Below, piece after piece: positions 1,442 to 8,683 of a stretch of 10,722 bases of DNA. Positions within the stretch are counted from its first letter, which is position 1. Each line of letters starts with the position of its first letter. The notes beneath the pieces were generated by a model. It was not told the DNA's origin. It ran no database searches and saw nothing but the letters and a program-made list of their open reading frames with translations. The translations under genes were made by a program, and so were the position numbers. The stretch covers positions 1 to 10,722 of the forward strand of contig JAJXYI010000218.1 in NCBI GenBank assembly GCA_021780625.1. The letters are read 5' to 3'. The DNA comes from a bacterium (lineage in GTDB: Bacteria > Verrucomicrobiota > Verrucomicrobiae > Opitutales > Opitutaceae).

Positions 1442-3400
1442 TCACTCGACCCGTATCGGCACGATCACGAAGGGCAGGCTCGCGAGGAAGAAGCGCCGCT
1501 GCAGCGTGAAGACGAGATGGTTGTGCAGCCAGCGGTTGGCCCGGGTTTCCTTGGCAAACACGAGCTGGCCGCCGAAAAACACCCGGCTCGGATATTTCTC
1601 GGCGATCGTCGCCGCCAGCCCCATCACCCGCCCCGCGACGTCGCTTCCAATGTCGGTGTACGCTTCCGATCCATAGCCGTGGGCATGCGCCCAGCGCACA
1701 TACCGCTGGATACTCGCGTCGGTGTGCTTCCGCAGGGCGTCGATCTCGTCGGCTCCCTTGAAGTTGCCCGCGTCGACCGCTCCGACCTGAACGAAAACAT
1801 AGTTGCGGTACTGGTCGCCAAACAGCCGCGGCACATTGAGCAGCGTATGCAGGCCCAGTCCGTTGTAGCCATTGACGAGCACGATCGCCGTGCGCGCCTT
1901 CGGGTCGATGACCGGCGCGGGCTTCGCCAAGTCCGCACCGGTGACAGCCACGTCCACCGCCTCGACGATCGCATCGAGCCGGCGCAGGCGCTCCCGCACG
2001 TCATCGTAGTGCCAGCGCACGAGGTACGCCCCGAATACCAGCACGCCGGTGACCGCCAGCGTGATCCAGCCGCCTTCACTGAACTTCACCAAGACAAGCA
2101 TCCACAAAATGCTAAAGGTCATCGTGAACCCCAGCCCATTGATGAACAGATGCGAGACCCAGTGCGGCTCGGTGCGCCGCACCTCCCACCAGTGCTTGAC
2201 CATGCCGAACTGGGAGAGCGAAAACGTGATGAACACGTTGATCGAATAGAGCACAACCAGCAGGTCCACGTTGCCGCGGGTGGCCAGCATCATCACCATG
2301 CCCGCACCGGCCATCAGCAATACGCCGTTCTGGGTGACGAACCGGTCGCTGAGATTGGCGAAGCGCGTCGGAAACCAGCGGTCCAGAGCCATGTTTGAGA
2401 GCACGCGCGGACCGTCGAGAAAGCCGGTCTGGGCGGCGATCAGCAGCAGCATCGCCTCCGAGGCGAGCGTGACCCACACAAATACCGCGCCTCCCGTTCC
2501 CCAGCCGGCGGCCATCGTGTGAAACAGCACCGCGTTGAGCGTCTTCCCCTCTTCGGGTTGGACATGGTAGAGCAGGTACGCGAGCAGCAGTCCGCCGACC
2601 GTGACGGCCAGCGACACGCCCATGTAAACCATGGTCTTGCGGCCCGTCTTCACCCGCGGCTCGCGCAGGATCGGCAGGCCGTTGCTCACCGCCTCGATGC
2701 CCGTGAAGGTGCCCGCGCCCATGCTGTAGGCCTTCAGAATAACCGCCAGCAGCCCAAAGAACCCCACCGAGGCGCTTACGGTGTGCACCTCGTGCGCGGT
2801 ATCAGCCCCGACGGATACCAACCCGTGCGCGTGCGAGGCGATCGCGTAGATGATCGCGAACGCGTGCGTCGCGACGAAGATGAAAAACACGGGCGCCCAA
2901 AGCATCACCGATTCCTTCACGCCGCGCAGGTTCATCAGCGTGAGCCAGAGCAACCCGAGCACGGCGAAGGTCAGTTTCCAGCCCAGCCAGGCCTGAGGAA
3001 GGATGCTGAACAGCGCGTCTGCGCCGCTCGCCACCGAAATCGTGATGGTGAGCACGTAGTCGACCAGCAGCGCCGAGCCCGAGACGACACCAAAAAATGG
3101 CGACAGAAGTTTGCTGGCCACCAGATATCCGCCACCGCCCGACGGGAAAAGGGCGATGATCTGCGAGTAGCTCGCGCAGATCACGAAAATGGTCACCAGG
3201 GTCGCAAGCGCCACAAACAGGCTCAGGTGCACGTTCGTGCCGAGGGCCTTGAAGGCCTCCTCCGGACCGTAGCAGGAGGACGACAAGCCGTCCGCCCCCA
3301 GCCCGACCCACGCGAACACCGCGGTCAGCCAGAGCTTGTGAAAAAGGTCGTGGTCGGAGAGCGACCGTTCCTTGCCGACGAGCAGGGTCTTTAGCGACAT
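1442..3400 (-). CDS. kimA: KimA-like APC/KUP-superfamily K+ importer
   Basis: This is a 652-residue permease with about 12 membrane segments (residues about 25-465) and a cytoplasmic C-terminal domain (about 500-652). It aligns along its length with Bacillus KimA (YdaO) as I remember that sequence: GADGLSSSCYGPEEA, FPSGGGGYLVASK, LLVDYVLTITISVASGADA, TFTGIEAVSNGLP, AAQTGF and the C-terminal WLHN...RFFLASLPF region. Residues matching the KimA K+ ligands are all present: D37, Y44, D114, Y115, T118, S122, T233, E236 and Y385. KimA imports K+ with protons and is inhibited by c-di-AMP. I infer K+ uptake at the inner membrane; automated labels would probably say 'amino acid permease'. The start at 3400 is the only in-frame start near the homology; the frame stays open to 3754, but that part overlaps a riboswitch. 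The start has no SD and overlaps the end of a 50-codon ORF, so coupled translation is likely. Confidence 0.8.
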   Translation of the reverse strand: MSLKTLLVGKERSLSDHDLFHKLWLTAVFAWVGLGADGLSSSCYGPEEAFKALGTNVHLSLFVALATLVTIFVICASYSQIIALFPSGGGGYLVASKLLSPFFGVVSGSALLVDYVLTITISVASGADALFSILPQAWLGWKLTFAVLGLLWLTLMNLRGVKESVMLWAPVFFIFVATHAFAIIYAIASHAHGLVSVGADTAHEVHTVSASVGFFGLLAVILKAYSMGAGTFTGIEAVSNGLPILREPRVKTGRKTMVYMGVSLAVTVGGLLLAYLLYHVQPEEGKTLNAVLFHTMAAGWGTGGAVFVWVTLASEAMLLLIAAQTGFLDGPRVLSNMALDRWFPTRFANLSDRFVTQNGVLLMAGAGMVMMLATRGNVDLLVVLYSINVFITFSLSQFGMVKHWWEVRRTEPHWVSHLFINGLGFTMTFSILWMLVLVKFSEGGWITLAVTGVLVFGAYLVRWHYDDVRERLRRLDAIVEAVDVAVTGADLAKPAPVIDPKARTAIVLVNGYNGLGLHTLLNVPRLFGDQYRNYVFVQVGAVDAGNFKGADEIDALRKHTDASIQRYVRWAHAHGYGSEAYTDIGSDVAGRVMGLAATIAEKYPSRVFFGGQLVFAKETRANRWLHNHLVFTLQRRFFLASLPFVIVPIRVE

Positions 3401-3543
3401 GGCTGGTGGGCGACAAACGTGAGCCCAAGCGTGCGGTGTCGCAGCTGCGACGCCGCGACCGCGGACGCGGACGGTATTGCGAGGCGCATGGCCCCTTCCG
3501 AAATGTGACTGCGCGAAACCAATGCGATGACCTGGATGGCCAT
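3391..3543 (-). CDS. 50-residue upstream ORF coupled to kimA
   Basis: This small ORF starts at ATG 3543-3541, seven bases after AGGAGA (3556-3551), the best SD in the window. It encodes 50 residues beginning MAIQVIALVSRSH and ending FVAHQPCR. Its TAA stop (3393-3391) lies inside the kimA gene, overlapping the kimA ATG at 3400-3398 by ten bases in another frame. It has no signal peptide, no clear membrane segment and no family I recognise. The placement between a riboswitch and a transporter start without its own SD suggests a translation-coupling leader whose peptide may not matter. It could also be a chance ORF; the good SD and the overlap argue against that. Confidence 0.55.
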   Translation of the reverse strand: MAIQVIALVSRSHISEGAMRLAIPSASAVAASQLRHRTLGLTFVAHQPCR

Positions 3544-3654
3544 TGGAATGTCTCCTGAGAGGGGTTCCGGGGGGCGTTCGGTATTCCCGAACCAGCCCGG
3601 CGAGCCCGTTGAAGTGGGGAGACCTTGGAGAACGCCAAGAGGGCGGCTCTAGTG
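3544..3654 (-). promoter_or_regulatory. Riboswitch expression platform
   Basis: This leader segment lies between the c-di-AMP aptamer and the upstream ORF. ACGGGCTCG (3609-3601) is perfectly complementary over nine bases to CGAGCCCGT (3697-3689) in the conserved 3' strand of the aptamer, as an anti-aptamer strand would be. GTCTCC (3623-3618) is complementary to GGAGAC (3555-3550), which contains the SD. The two pairings would form a pseudoknot together, so they probably alternate. Two local hairpins are also visible: CTTGG/CCAAG, and GTTCGG/CCGAAC around a GAATA loop. No U-run follows any hairpin, which points to translational rather than intrinsic-terminator control. The pairings are seen; the switching order is inferred. 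Confidence 0.55.
3551..3556 (-). promoter_or_regulatory. Shine-Dalgarno site of the kimA leader ORF
   Basis: AGGAGA on the minus strand lies seven bases before the ATG at 3543. It overlaps GGAGAC (3555-3550), which is complementary to GTCTCC at 3623-3618 in the same leader. The site could therefore be hidden in a hairpin. No in-frame kimA start codon lies near this SD, so it can serve only the small ORF directly. Confidence 0.6.
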
Positions 3655-3817
3655 GATCACCCTTCCAATTTGCCTGCGAGGTTAGCTGACGGGCTCGGTC
3701 TAGGAAGTGACCTTGTCCGCGGTTGCCCGCGGCCGTACGCCCCGTCCCCGGCATTGCCGAGGAATGTGGTTCCCCCGCGCGTCCACCCAGGAAGGGGCGG
3801 CCGCTTCGGCTGTGATC
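3655..3817 (-). promoter_or_regulatory. c-di-AMP riboswitch (ydaO/yuaA class)
   Basis: The minus strand contains CCGTCAGCTAACCTCG (3692-3677), identical over 16 bases to the most conserved stretch of the Bacillus ydaO leader as I recall it. It is followed by CAGGC, the usual 3' strand of P1. Upstream, in the right order, is GCGGGGGAACC (3778-3768), matching the conserved GGGGGACCC block. Two clean hairpins lie between: CCTCGGC/GCCGGGG with an AAT loop (3762-3746) and CCGCGG/CCGCGG with a GCAA tetraloop (3732-3717). The 5' P1 strand is probably GCC at 3810-3808, and GATCAC (3817-3812) can pair with GTGATC (3660-3655) to extend it. The usual GGGGUGAAU block is present only as a diverged GGGGCGTA. 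The class binds two c-di-AMP molecules and usually turns expression off. The gene behind it is a KimA-like transporter, a classic target. Outer limits are approximate. Confidence 0.85.
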
Positions 3818-3831
3818 AAAGAACGCATTCC

Positions 3832-3859
3832 ATTATCGCCGACGTTTTCCACCTCGCAA
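3832..3859 (-). promoter_or_regulatory. Candidate proximal promoter of the kimA leader
   Basis: On the minus strand TTGCGA (3859-3854) and GATAAT (3837-3832) are 16 bp apart. Transcription would begin near 3825, a few bases before the first paired segment of the riboswitch. The location is what makes it attractive; the motif match alone is moderate. Confidence 0.4.
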
Positions 3860-3881
3860 TCCGCGCCACGTTTATATCCTG

Positions 3882-3930
3882 TTTATCAACCAGATAAAAT
3901 TATTTATACCGCGGCACGTTTCCAAACCAA
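3882..3930 (-). promoter_or_regulatory. Candidate distal promoter with inverted repeat
   Basis: On the minus strand TTGGTT (3930-3925) and TATAAA (3908-3903) are 16 bp apart, giving a start near 3896. A perfect inverted repeat, TTTATC (3882-3887) and GATAAA (3893-3898) around five bases, covers that predicted start and could be an operator. The stretch from about 3868 to 3910 is the most AT-rich in the window, which fits a promoter region. No regulator is recognised. Confidence 0.3.
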
Positions 3931-4010
3931 CCCCAGGGTCAATCCGAAGCCAAGTAATTACCCGCCAGGCAGTTCTCAACAGACCACCTGGAGGGCAGCT
4001 CAAGGCCCTG

Positions 4011-4069
4011 AAAAATCGTGGTTTGCCGCTCTCGTCAGAGCGGCCCCGGAGTTCGGCGTTCGGGGCCGC
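4011..4069 (-). terminator. Candidate terminator after the alkene reductase
   Basis: Two overlapping perfect hairpins follow the reductase stop codon. The first to be transcribed has nine-base arms, 4061-4069 with 4040-4048. The second has seven-base arms around a tetraloop (4026-4043). A run of five U (4015-4011) comes ten bases after the second. The two hairpins share bases 4040-4043, so they compete. The rest of 3931-4010 shows no gene. Confidence 0.4.
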
Positions 4070-6152: not shown

Positions 6153-6803
6153 TCAGAACCGCACCGGCACCGGTGCGTAGAACAGCTGAGGATCGCCCTG
6201 GGCGACACCCTCGACGTTGGCGCGGATCCGCCGCATGATCTCCTCGCGCAGCGCCTCCGGCCCCTGGCTCGCCTGCAACAGCTCGAAGCCGTTCGAATCG
6301 ACGTGGATCGTGCAGGATCCGATCCCCGCACCGCGTTGCGGCACGAATGTGAAGTCGAAGGTCTTGGGCTGACCCGCCTTCAGCGAACCGATCTCGCGGA
6401 CGAGCAGGGTCGGCTTCCGCGAGGCACCGCTGATCTCGAACGCCGCGAACACGTGCTCCAGCAACACCGGCGCACACAGCGTCCCGGAGACAATCCTCAT
6501 ACTCGTCTCGAGCCCGTCGACCCCCGAGAGATGCACGGTGGACCGGTCGATCGACAGGCCCTCGACCCGCACCACGACGGGCGGGGGCATTCCCCGCCAG
6601 TAGCGCTTCACCACCTCCGCGATTCGAAACGCAACGGACGAGGCCTGGACCAGTTTGCCGTTCTCGAGGACGAGCGGCACCTCGCGCGTCACCGCGGAGA
6701 CCGGACGCCAGTCGCGGTCGGACCGGGCCAGGAGCACGGTGATGTTTGCCTGTGCGACCGGGGCAAATGCCGCGGCCAGCAGCATCAGGAGCATCGGTTT
6801 CAT
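6153..6803 (-). CDS. Exported protein of unknown family, short paralog
   Basis: I do not recognise a named family. The 216-residue product begins with a signal peptide (1-19, cut likely after AQA). Its mature part parallels the two genes upstream of it: TVLLARSDRDWRPVSAV (22-38), a VPLV segment, VREIG (135-139), SNGFELLQ (170-177) and an amphipathic EALREEIMRRIRANVEGV (183-200). It ends at FYAPVPVRF, the point where the two paralogs continue through a Pro-rich linker into a TonB-C-like domain. This copy therefore lacks that domain, and only 31 bases separate its stop from deoC, so no remnant remains. It is the last gene of the array, 74 bases after the middle copy. No SD is clear. Location is probably periplasmic. 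Expression with the other two is likely but not shown. Confidence 0.75.
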   Translation of the reverse strand: MKPMLLMLLAAAFAPVAQANITVLLARSDRDWRPVSAVTREVPLVLENGKLVQASSVAFRIAEVVKRYWRGMPPPVVVRVEGLSIDRSTVHLSGVDGLETSMRIVSGTLCAPVLLEHVFAAFEISGASRKPTLLVREIGSLKAGQPKTFDFTFVPQRGAGIGSCTIHVDSNGFELLQASQGPEALREEIMRRIRANVEGVAQGDPQLFYAPVPVRF

Positions 6804-6877
6804 CGCCTTGGATTTTTAGCTCCAATGCGGCCTGAAATCCAGCCCGGCCCGCGGGCGACACGTGCCGCCCGGCCTGC

Positions 6878-7762
6878 TCAACCGTGGCCGCGATCAAGCT
6901 TGGGATCAAACTGGACCGCGATGTCGACCCGGCACGTGCAGGGCTTTCCGTTCACAACCTTCGGGATGAAGAAATAGTCCGACGCCGCCCGCTCGGCGGC
7001 GACTGCATAATCCTGCGTTGCACCCTTGACAGCATGCGCCGCCGACACGGACCCGTCCGGGGCGATCGTGGCGATCACATCCACCTGGCGCACGGGCGAA
7101 TCGTCCCGCATCGAGGCGGGGCGAGCCGGCGGCTGCGTGAAGTAAGGGATTGGGCCCGCATTTTTAACCCCGGCGAGATGAGCCTGAATGCGCCGCTCGA
7201 TGTCCCGCCTGATCGCCTTCGCGCCAAGGCGAGTTTGAAGAAGTTCGAATCCGTCCGAGTAGACGTGCACGAAGGCGCTCGCGAGCCCCGACATTCGGTT
7301 CGGCGGGACCGCGAACTCAAAGCTCGTGTCCCGATGCGCCCGGAGACGCCCAATTTCGCGCACCATCAGAGCTTCGCCACCCGAGGGAAGCGAGAAGTCG
7401 AACACCACGTAAACGTCCCTGAGGGAAACCGGCGCACGAACTGAGCCGGAGATCACTTGGACATCGTGCTCCATCGTTCCCGTCGAGTTCATGTGCATCG
7501 CCGCCCTACGCGAGTCGATGTCATGCACGTCCACGATTGCGGGGGCCGGAACGGTTTTCCAGTAGTTCGTAACCTTGACCAGGCGGTAGCCTCCGCCCGA
7601 GGCCTCCACCAGTCGTCCATGCTTCGTGACAAGCGGGACGGAATGATTGACCGCCGAGACCGGCAGCCAGGCGCCATCGCTGCGGGCGAGCAGCACGGTG
7701 GTGTCTGCCCGGGCTGCGAACGCACCCAGCAGGACCAGGAAAGTTGTCGCGAATAATCTCAT
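6878..7762 (-). CDS. Exported protein with TonB-C-like domain, middle paralog
   Basis: The 294-residue product has a signal peptide (1-19, ending ARA), then the array's shared N-terminal region starting DTTVLLARSDGAWLPVSAV. VREIG lies at 134-138 and SDGFELLQ at 169-176, with the amphipathic stretch AIRRDIERRIQAHLAGV (183-199). After a Pro-rich linker (about 205-218), residues 222-287 look like a TonB C-terminal-type domain: VDVIATIAPDGSVSAA, a helix rich in Ala, then FFIPKVVNGKPCTCRVDIAVQFDP. Two cysteines (CTC) sit in the last strands. True TonB has an N-terminal membrane anchor and a proline-rich spacer; this protein has only a cleavable signal, so I would not call it TonB. Such domains also occur in stand-alone exported proteins of unknown role. 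It starts 24 bases after the first paralog, with no clear SD. Confidence 0.78.
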   Translation of the reverse strand: MRLFATTFLVLLGAFAARADTTVLLARSDGAWLPVSAVNHSVPLVTKHGRLVEASGGGYRLVKVTNYWKTVPAPAIVDVHDIDSRRAAMHMNSTGTMEHDVQVISGSVRAPVSLRDVYVVFDFSLPSGGEALMVREIGRLRAHRDTSFEFAVPPNRMSGLASAFVHVYSDGFELLQTRLGAKAIRRDIERRIQAHLAGVKNAGPIPYFTQPPARPASMRDDSPVRQVDVIATIAPDGSVSAAHAVKGATQDYAVAAERAASDYFFIPKVVNGKPCTCRVDIAVQFDPKLDRGHG

Positions 7763-7786
7763 GAAAAGCAGAAGGACCGCTTCCGA

Positions 7787-8683
7787 TCACCGCGACGGTT
7801 GCGGATCGAGCACCACCGGGATGTTGACCTTGCAGTTGGTCGGCACGCCTTGCTCGATCCTGGGAAGAAAGTACGAGGCAAGCACGGCATTCACCGCGGC
7901 GTCGGCCTGGTCGGCTGGCGTGCCCGGCGCGGCCACGGCCTCGGGCACCGAACCGTTTGCGAGAATCGTCGCGTGCACGATCACGATCTTTCGGGCCCCC
8001 AATTTCCGCACCGACGCGGGAATCTTCGGCGGCGTCAGCACGTAGGGCCGGGGATTTTCATTCGCCACGCCCTCCGTCTCGGCGCGGATGTGCCGCGCGA
8101 CTTCCGAGTTGATGTAGCCCCATCCCTCGCGGGGAAAGAACAGCTCGAGACCCCGGCAATAGAAATGAACCTTGTAGCCCTTGATGCCCAAGTCCGCGTT
8201 CAGTTGGACGTGATACTGGAAAAAATCCGGTTCGTAGGACTTGAGGTCGCCCACCTCCCTCACGAGCACGGTCTTCTTCTCGTCCTGGCCGTTGAACACG
8301 AAAACCGCAAACACGTCGGGCAGATCAACGGGAGAGGTGATGACCGCGTCGATGTCGAACTCCCGGTTCAGAATGGCGGTGTCCCCTACGATCACCTTGC
8401 CCTCGCTCCGCACCCGCATGTGGTCCATCTGGATGATGACCGGAGGCACCATTCCCCGGCGGTAGGTTCCGATTTGTCGCAGCGCATAGAGACCGGGTTC
8501 GGCTCGGGCCAGGGCGTTGTTGGACAGCACGTAGGGGACGCTACCCTCGACCTTGACGACGGGGAGCCACTGGTTGTGAAGGCGGGCAAAGACCACGGTG
8601 GTGTCGGCCCGCGCGACAGCGGCAAACACGGAAGTCAAGGCGGCGGCAATCAAGCCGGCGCAAAGAAGGGTATGGCGGAGCAT
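7787..8683 (-). CDS. Exported protein with TonB-C-like domain, first paralog
   Basis: The 298-residue product has a longer signal peptide (1-26, ending ARA), followed by the shared start DTTVVFARLHNQWLPVVKV. VREVG lies at 141-145, and CRGLELFF (176-183) replaces the SDGFELLQ of its neighbours. The stretch ending HIRAETEGVANENPRPYV (198-215) corresponds to the paralogs' amphipathic segment. A Pro-rich linker (217-224) leads to a TonB-C-like domain (225-294), with KIVIVHATILANGSVPEAV and FLPRIEQGVPTNCKVNIPV; the single C284 matches one cysteine of the middle copy's pair. It is the most diverged member and the first in transcription order. The esterase stop lies 86 bases upstream; no promoter is evident in that gap, so it may be transcribed from the esterase promoter. 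Function is unknown. Confidence 0.78.
   Translation of the reverse strand: MLRHTLLCAGLIAAALTSVFAAVARADTTVVFARLHNQWLPVVKVEGSVPYVLSNNALARAEPGLYALRQIGTYRRGMVPPVIIQMDHMRVRSEGKVIVGDTAILNREFDIDAVITSPVDLPDVFAVFVFNGQDEKKTVLVREVGDLKSYEPDFFQYHVQLNADLGIKGYKVHFYCRGLELFFPREGWGYINSEVARHIRAETEGVANENPRPYVLTPPKIPASVRKLGARKIVIVHATILANGSVPEAVAAPGTPADQADAAVNAVLASYFLPRIEQGVPTNCKVNIPVVLDPQPSR

Follow-up and report, generated by a model that had tools for sequence, protein, structure and literature searches.

The window, that is, the whole stretch of 10,722 nt analysed here, carries on its minus strand a putative KimA-type K+ importer gene and, upstream of it, a predicted c-di-AMP riboswitch, with a short leader ORF and a set of complementary strands between the two (Table 1). 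For the product of the importer gene, a sequence search of the PDB at E 0.001 gave KimA (6s3k) alone, with residues 3 to 489 aligned, a relation that extends over the membrane domain of the solved protein. The Pfam match places the product among the APC-type permeases. The K+-coordinating residues of KimA (Asp36, Tyr43, Thr230 and Tyr377; PMC10284832) are all kept in the window protein, as D37, Y44, T233 and Y385. These four ligands and the strength of the match to 6s3k bear out the KimA-like transporter that had been named in a preliminary description of the locus. Arg337, which contacts c-di-AMP in B. subtilis KimA and strengthens its binding but is reportedly non-essential (PMC10284832), aligns with Thr345, adjacent to Arg346. 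Nothing in the PDB matched the sequence of the C-terminal 172 residues, even at E values up to 10, and no counterpart of the cytosolic domain of B. subtilis KimA was recovered there. Since Arg337 is reportedly non-essential and the domain was compared by sequence alone, these two mismatches concern how c-di-AMP might control the protein and leave its assignment as a K+ importer untouched. The proteins closest to the window KimA stand at 99%, 86% (mine drainage metagenome) and 74% (Opitutus sp. GAS368), and its named relatives are Opitutaceae-type. Judged by this single protein, the window most likely derives from Opitutaceae or close kin, in agreement with the Verrucomicrobial origin given in the preliminary description. 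Elsewhere in the window, three neighbouring ORFs of 216, 294 and 298 aa (6153-8683, minus strand) look like paralogues by eye; they have a signal-peptide-like start and a DTTVVFARL/DTTVLLARS motif, and gave no Pfam match.

Table 1. Features of the riboswitch and importer region, listed from the 5' end of the leader
Feature	Position	Strand	Remarks
Promoter-like hexamers TTGCGA-16-GATAAT	3832-3859	-	Consensus scan, 9 of 12 positions; directly upstream of the aptamer
c-di-AMP (ydaO/yuaA) riboswitch aptamer, predicted	3656-3821	-	RF00379, 61.8 bits, gathering score 38, E 1.1e-12, model positions 1-134 of 134
P2 hairpin segment CCCUUCC	3790-3796	-	Can pair with tail GGAAGGG (possible pseudoknot); 7-nt exact complement
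Aptamer tail GGAAGGGUGAUC	3655-3666	-	GGAAGGG faces the P2 segment; motif in 40 of 40 leaders
Helix A, 5' strand GGGUGAUC	3655-3662	-	Part of the aptamer tail
Shared strand GGUCUCCC, helix A 3' strand	3617-3624	-	GUCUCC (3618-3623) also helix B 5' strand (anti-Shine-Dalgarno)
Possible anti-aptamer strand ACGGGCUCG	3601-3609	-	Complementary to aptamer core 3689-3697 over 9 nt without mismatch
Hairpin GUUCGG-GAAUA-CCGAAC	3576-3592	-	Between the helix B strands; consensus of 26 leaders, stem changed on both sides
Shine-Dalgarno AGGAG (3552-3556) within AGGAGAC	3550-3556	-	GGAGAC (3550-3555) is the helix B 3' strand; same place in relatives
Leader ORF, putative coding	3391-3543	-	50 codons and stop; ATG 3543 after Shine-Dalgarno AGGAG; stop overlaps kimA ATG 3400
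KimA-like K+ importer gene, putative	1442-3400	-	652 aa; PDB 6s3k, E 9.1e-62; Pfam AA_permease_2

When the whole window was compared with all Rfam families (cmscan), RF00379 was the sole match over the gathering score, and the score obtained with the full-length covariance model confirmed the riboswitch class proposed in the preliminary description. The limits given there (3655-3817) lay a few bases off those found by cmscan, and its motifs were correct: the exact match in the 3' strand amounts to 24 nt of the conserved core (CCGAGCCCGUCAGCUAACCUCGCA), identical by eye to the crystallised ydaO aptamer as given in PMC5393176, and the GGGGGAACC block is there too. At the GGGGUGAAU block the window has GGGGCGUAC, and the crystallised aptamer GGGGGCGAAUC (PMC5393176). 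This block is also variable across 33 other aligned aptamers, and its state in the window was therefore taken as variation within the class; the earlier suggestion of a variant subclass, made from the altered GGGG block, was set aside on these grounds. A variant aptamer with a different ligand, or one decayed to a non-binding form, is extremely improbable. Departure of the GGGGUGAAU block from the consensus is what such a reading could draw on, against a full-length match far over the gathering score, an unaltered 3' core, the variability of the same block in the crystallised c-di-AMP aptamer and the 33 relatives, and the K+ transporter genes found downstream in many relatives. The window element is a genuine predicted RNA switch of the c-di-AMP-sensing class. 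As to the promoter-like hexamers, the consensus scan gave two such sites on both strands (0.2 expected), which is no evidence of function.

Linkage of the riboswitch with kimA was followed in a draw of 150 genomes from the family to which G001 (an Opitutaceae MAG, locus L001) belongs. RF00379 was matched in 36 of them, every match over the cut-off, in a search whose stricter filters miss weak matches. Nineteen of these matches have a KimA-like gene directly after them, on their own strand and within 600 nt, and four lie 2.1-2.4 kb upstream of such a gene. In two more of the genomes KimA is located elsewhere, and the remaining 11 gave no KimA hit. In two of the four distant cases (G085 and G031, KimA 2.1-2.3 kb past the switch) the intervening gene is Band_7 (SPFH)-like by eye. 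A riboswitch before a Band_7/SPFH-type gene was observed at L065, L066, L070, L076, L078, L080, L081, L083, L086 and L089; this identity was confirmed by Pfam in L086 only and otherwise assigned by eye. The gene after the L071 riboswitch is Kup-type, and Ktr/Trk-like genes, recognised by eye only, follow those of L069, L142 and L144.

Of 252 genomes of the family, 241 have a DAC domain and 52 a KimA-like match, with fragments and weak hits counted. Among 16 further genomes reached via KimA relatives, the riboswitch was present in two (loci titled Opitutae and Opitutia), both with a DAC domain; of the 14 riboswitch-less genomes, four had DAC. Six Verrucomicrobial genomes yielded the riboswitch in five cases and DAC in four; G004 has a riboswitch but no DAC hit, and G002 has neither. 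Upstream of kimA in 14 loci without an Rfam match, the aptamer core (at most three substitutions) was absent from the approximately 1.5 kb searched in 13 of them and from 183 nt in L112, which starts at the contig end. In the genomes of L107, L123 and L128 a riboswitch lies further upstream, and L122 duplicates the gene of L002. Subtraction of these five leaves nine distinct kimA genes without a nearby switch, and by this sequence search not every kimA orthologue has one.

Verrucomicrobia are already on record as a phylum in which c-di-AMP riboswitches are predicted to precede K+ transporter genes (PMC6488665), so the phylum does not lie outside the known range of the class, as had been supposed in the preliminary description. 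The distribution of the class is thus not new; what is new is one more instance, before a KimA-type gene and with an unusual leader ORF. The Verrucomicrobial riboswitches of PMC6488665 resemble that of the window in class, phylum and position before K+ transporter genes; the genes named there for those phyla are ktr, trk, kdp and kup, whereas the window has a KimA-type gene. A draw of 387 genomes from the phylum gave 24 RF00379 matches, 23 of them over the cut-off. One of the loci, L146 (G340), whose contig exceeds 2.2 Mb, has an aptamer at 1501-1667 (46.4 bits) and a kdpA ORF from 2127, about 0.46 kb downstream; riboswitch-controlled kdp is described in PMC6488665 as restricted to Bacillales, in contrast to this KdpA gene in a Verrucomicrobial draw. 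At another locus, L136 (G401), an 86-bit RF00379 match (aptamer approximately 1501-1648) precedes a citrate synthase gene with an ORF from 1711, which could mean that a foreign contig strayed into the assembly or that the riboswitch has become associated with a new gene.

The cyclase of G001 is a protein with PTS_EIIA_2, DacZ_P and DAC domains (L096:565-1917, plus strand), encoded about 15.6 kb from the riboswitch on one contig, and these three domains are common to its best 120 listed relatives. The window itself contains no cyclase gene. It was initially considered a new architecture, a reading dropped because Verrucomicrobial diadenylate cyclases, among them proteins from Lacunisphaera and Coraliomargarita, are already included in the DacD class (PMC6741144). 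The G001-type cyclase probably belongs to this class; the domain composition is known for G001, and the two are equated via the organisms alone. The fusion to PTS_EIIA_2 may point to a phosphotransferase-type input into c-di-AMP synthesis, and a full-text literature search returned no paper joining EIIA with a DAC-domain diadenylate cyclase.

For the expression platform, 40 leaders were compared, namely the window, 33 riboswitch loci and six further loci, with six of the 36 family matches left out. A tail of the form GGRAGGGYGRU follows directly 3' of P1 in all 40. Its GGGYGAUC part can form a helix (A) with a downstream strand that reads GGUCUCCC or GGUCGCUC in one group of leaders and GGUUGUCC in another. 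In an alignment of 26 leaders, 93.8% of the cells of helix A are paired, compared to 31.7-57.7% when the strands are slid, and RNAalifold recovered seven of the eight pairs unprompted; in an alignment of seven leaders all cells are paired. No doubly changed pair of helix A was seen in either alignment, and shuffles of the 26 leaders give it no covariation support. The same downstream strand can form a second helix (B) with the bases 5' of the first start codon, as GUCUCC/GGAGAC in the window and as GGUUGUC/GACAACC or GGUUGCC/GGCAACC elsewhere. In the 7-leader alignment, from which L063 and L072, two leaders without helix B pairing by eye, were left out, all counted cells of helix B are paired and one pair is doubly changed, in one sequence; five leaders (L062, L067, L069, L071 and L077) are in neither alignment. 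The covariation score of helix B together with the hairpin was reached by three of 500 shuffles, and the count of doubly changed pairs by 41 of 500. The pairing energy of helix B with its own strand was reached by none of 10,000 permutations over the 40 leaders, in a test that kinship inflates and in which the shared strand was placed automatically at a different site in four leaders, one of them the window. Both pairings are kept across groups of leaders, with slight covariation. Since helices A and B use one common strand, they are mutually exclusive and give the leader a switch-like anatomy. As for the hairpin itself, its GAAYA loop (window 3582-3586, minus strand; alignment A1 columns 118-134) was seen by eye in approximately 19 of 26 leaders, and its stem shows changes on both sides.

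The tail is also complementary to the P2 segment, over at least 5 nt in 39 of the 40 leaders (the exception being L061). The energy of the own P2/tail pairs was reached by 36 of 5000 permutations, which suggests a pairing that rests on conserved sequence rather than on covariation. When folding was computed with the tail blocked, to mimic its capture by the P2 hairpin, the start region formed more pairs with the sequence upstream of it (mean 4.27 to 6.38 bases, p 4e-5), and mean openness of the start region was unchanged (0.48 to 0.47, p 0.43); in the window alone it went slightly up, from 0.50 to 0.55.

From this anatomy we infer ligand control of the kimA gene, and the riboswitch probably acts on translation of the importer. 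The platform looks translational because no terminator-like site was found in 3300-4050 and because one strand can pair either with the tail or with the Shine-Dalgarno region. With K+ plentiful and c-di-AMP high, the ligand would lock the aptamer, the tail GGAAGGG would be held by the P2 hairpin and helix A would lose pairs; the freed GGUCUCC strand would then cover the Shine-Dalgarno sequence and switch translation off. At low c-di-AMP, helix A would re-form and the ribosome site open.

Transcriptional control by the same riboswitch, in which the ligand causes intrinsic or Rho-dependent termination within the 255 nt past the aptamer and the start-site pairing is a by-product, is an unlikely alternative, even though the Bacillus switches are described as working by termination (PMC6488665, PMC9337991). 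A strong hairpin (3576-3592) past the aptamer and the 9-nt anti-aptamer strand would suit it. The complementarity of ACGGGCUCG was reached by 44 of 3000 Markov shuffles and is matched by 7 nt at most in the 39 other leaders; as it is not conserved, the anti-aptamer strand was kept as a possibility of the window only. Against termination of the intrinsic type stands the lack of any terminator-like site in 3300-4050, where shuffles would give 1.1, and an intrinsic terminator was rejected on this count.

The direction of the translational control proposed above is taken from physiology and precedent rather than from folding, since openness was unchanged in the folding test. In an opposite, ON-type switch, c-di-AMP would stabilise the aptamer with helix A stacked and keep the ribosome-binding site open. 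Helix A adjoins P1 and could stack on it, and the start region did not close in folding with the tail held. Such a switch is nevertheless very unlikely: it would turn on an importer by a signal that drops at low K+, contrary to the OFF control of kimA and kdp described for Bacillus (PMC6488665) and to that of nlpC in C. glutamicum (PMC9960051).

Masking of ribosome sites has precedent, with ydaO listed in a review among the classes that use it (PMC10907184). For the nlpC riboswitch of C. glutamicum, control is reported as most likely at translation, and a CTCC strand is proposed to have two alternative partners, an upstream GGAG and the ribosome-binding site (PMC9960051), a scheme that resembles helices A and B of the window. 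The nlpC case, as described there, concerns a cell-wall peptidase gene and a switch tested in cells; the window concerns a K+ importer and sequence comparison alone. The ydaO/kimA system of Bacillus (RF00379) has the aptamer class and the kind of downstream gene in common with the window. The latter differs from it in having no terminator-like site, a platform that can pair with the ribosome-binding region and an intervening 50-codon ORF.

Directly before the kimA ATG at 3400 no Shine-Dalgarno sequence was seen. In 22 of 28 leaders directly before KimA, the start assigned after the platform is KimA's own. A leader ORF overlapping the kimA start, as in the window, also occurs in four of the 27 other KimA leaders (L079, L087, where it begins with GTG, L125 and L127); the leader ORF of L074 ends 45 nt short of kimA. 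For the window, translational coupling is the simplest reading we infer: the open site would start the 50-codon ORF, and ribosomes finishing it would begin again at the kimA ATG that overlaps its end.

The leader peptide of L127 resembles the start of Band_7-type proteins (0 of 1000 shuffles), and that of L079 is borderline (38 of 1000). The resemblance is absent in the leader peptides of the window (286 of 1000), L087 (505 of 1000) and L074 (847 of 1000), and no protein-level relative of the window peptide was found among those tested. In a cruder DNA comparison to the Band_7 set, whose target set wrongly included L127, a leader ORF itself, the scores were reached by 10 (window), 2 (L079), 2 (L087) and 16 (L074) of 200 shuffles. 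With only L127 clear, a Band_7 relic was rejected as the general origin of the leader ORFs. A more specific proposal can be put forward tentatively and is somewhat more doubtful than not, namely that the switch acts on translation via the leader ORF. The switched ribosome-binding site would be that of the 50-codon ORF, with the importer translated by the ribosomes that finish it, and in at least one relative (L127) the ORF would be the stump of a Band_7/SPFH-type gene of the kind that lies between switch and kimA elsewhere. If true, the operon would have lost its middle, and the beginning of the missing gene would have stayed behind to couple translation.

Neither the expression platform nor the 50-codon leader ORF that separates the switch from the transporter gene figured in the preliminary description, and the window offers a case for translational coupling via a leader ORF. 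With the 40 natural leaders, possible action of ydaO-class switches on translation, as proposed for C. glutamicum (PMC9960051), can be studied by comparison. The pair of riboswitch and KimA, best known from Bacillus, is now found in Opitutaceae-like bacteria, and since nearly all relatives have a DAC domain, c-di-AMP probably governs K+ uptake in these bacteria too.
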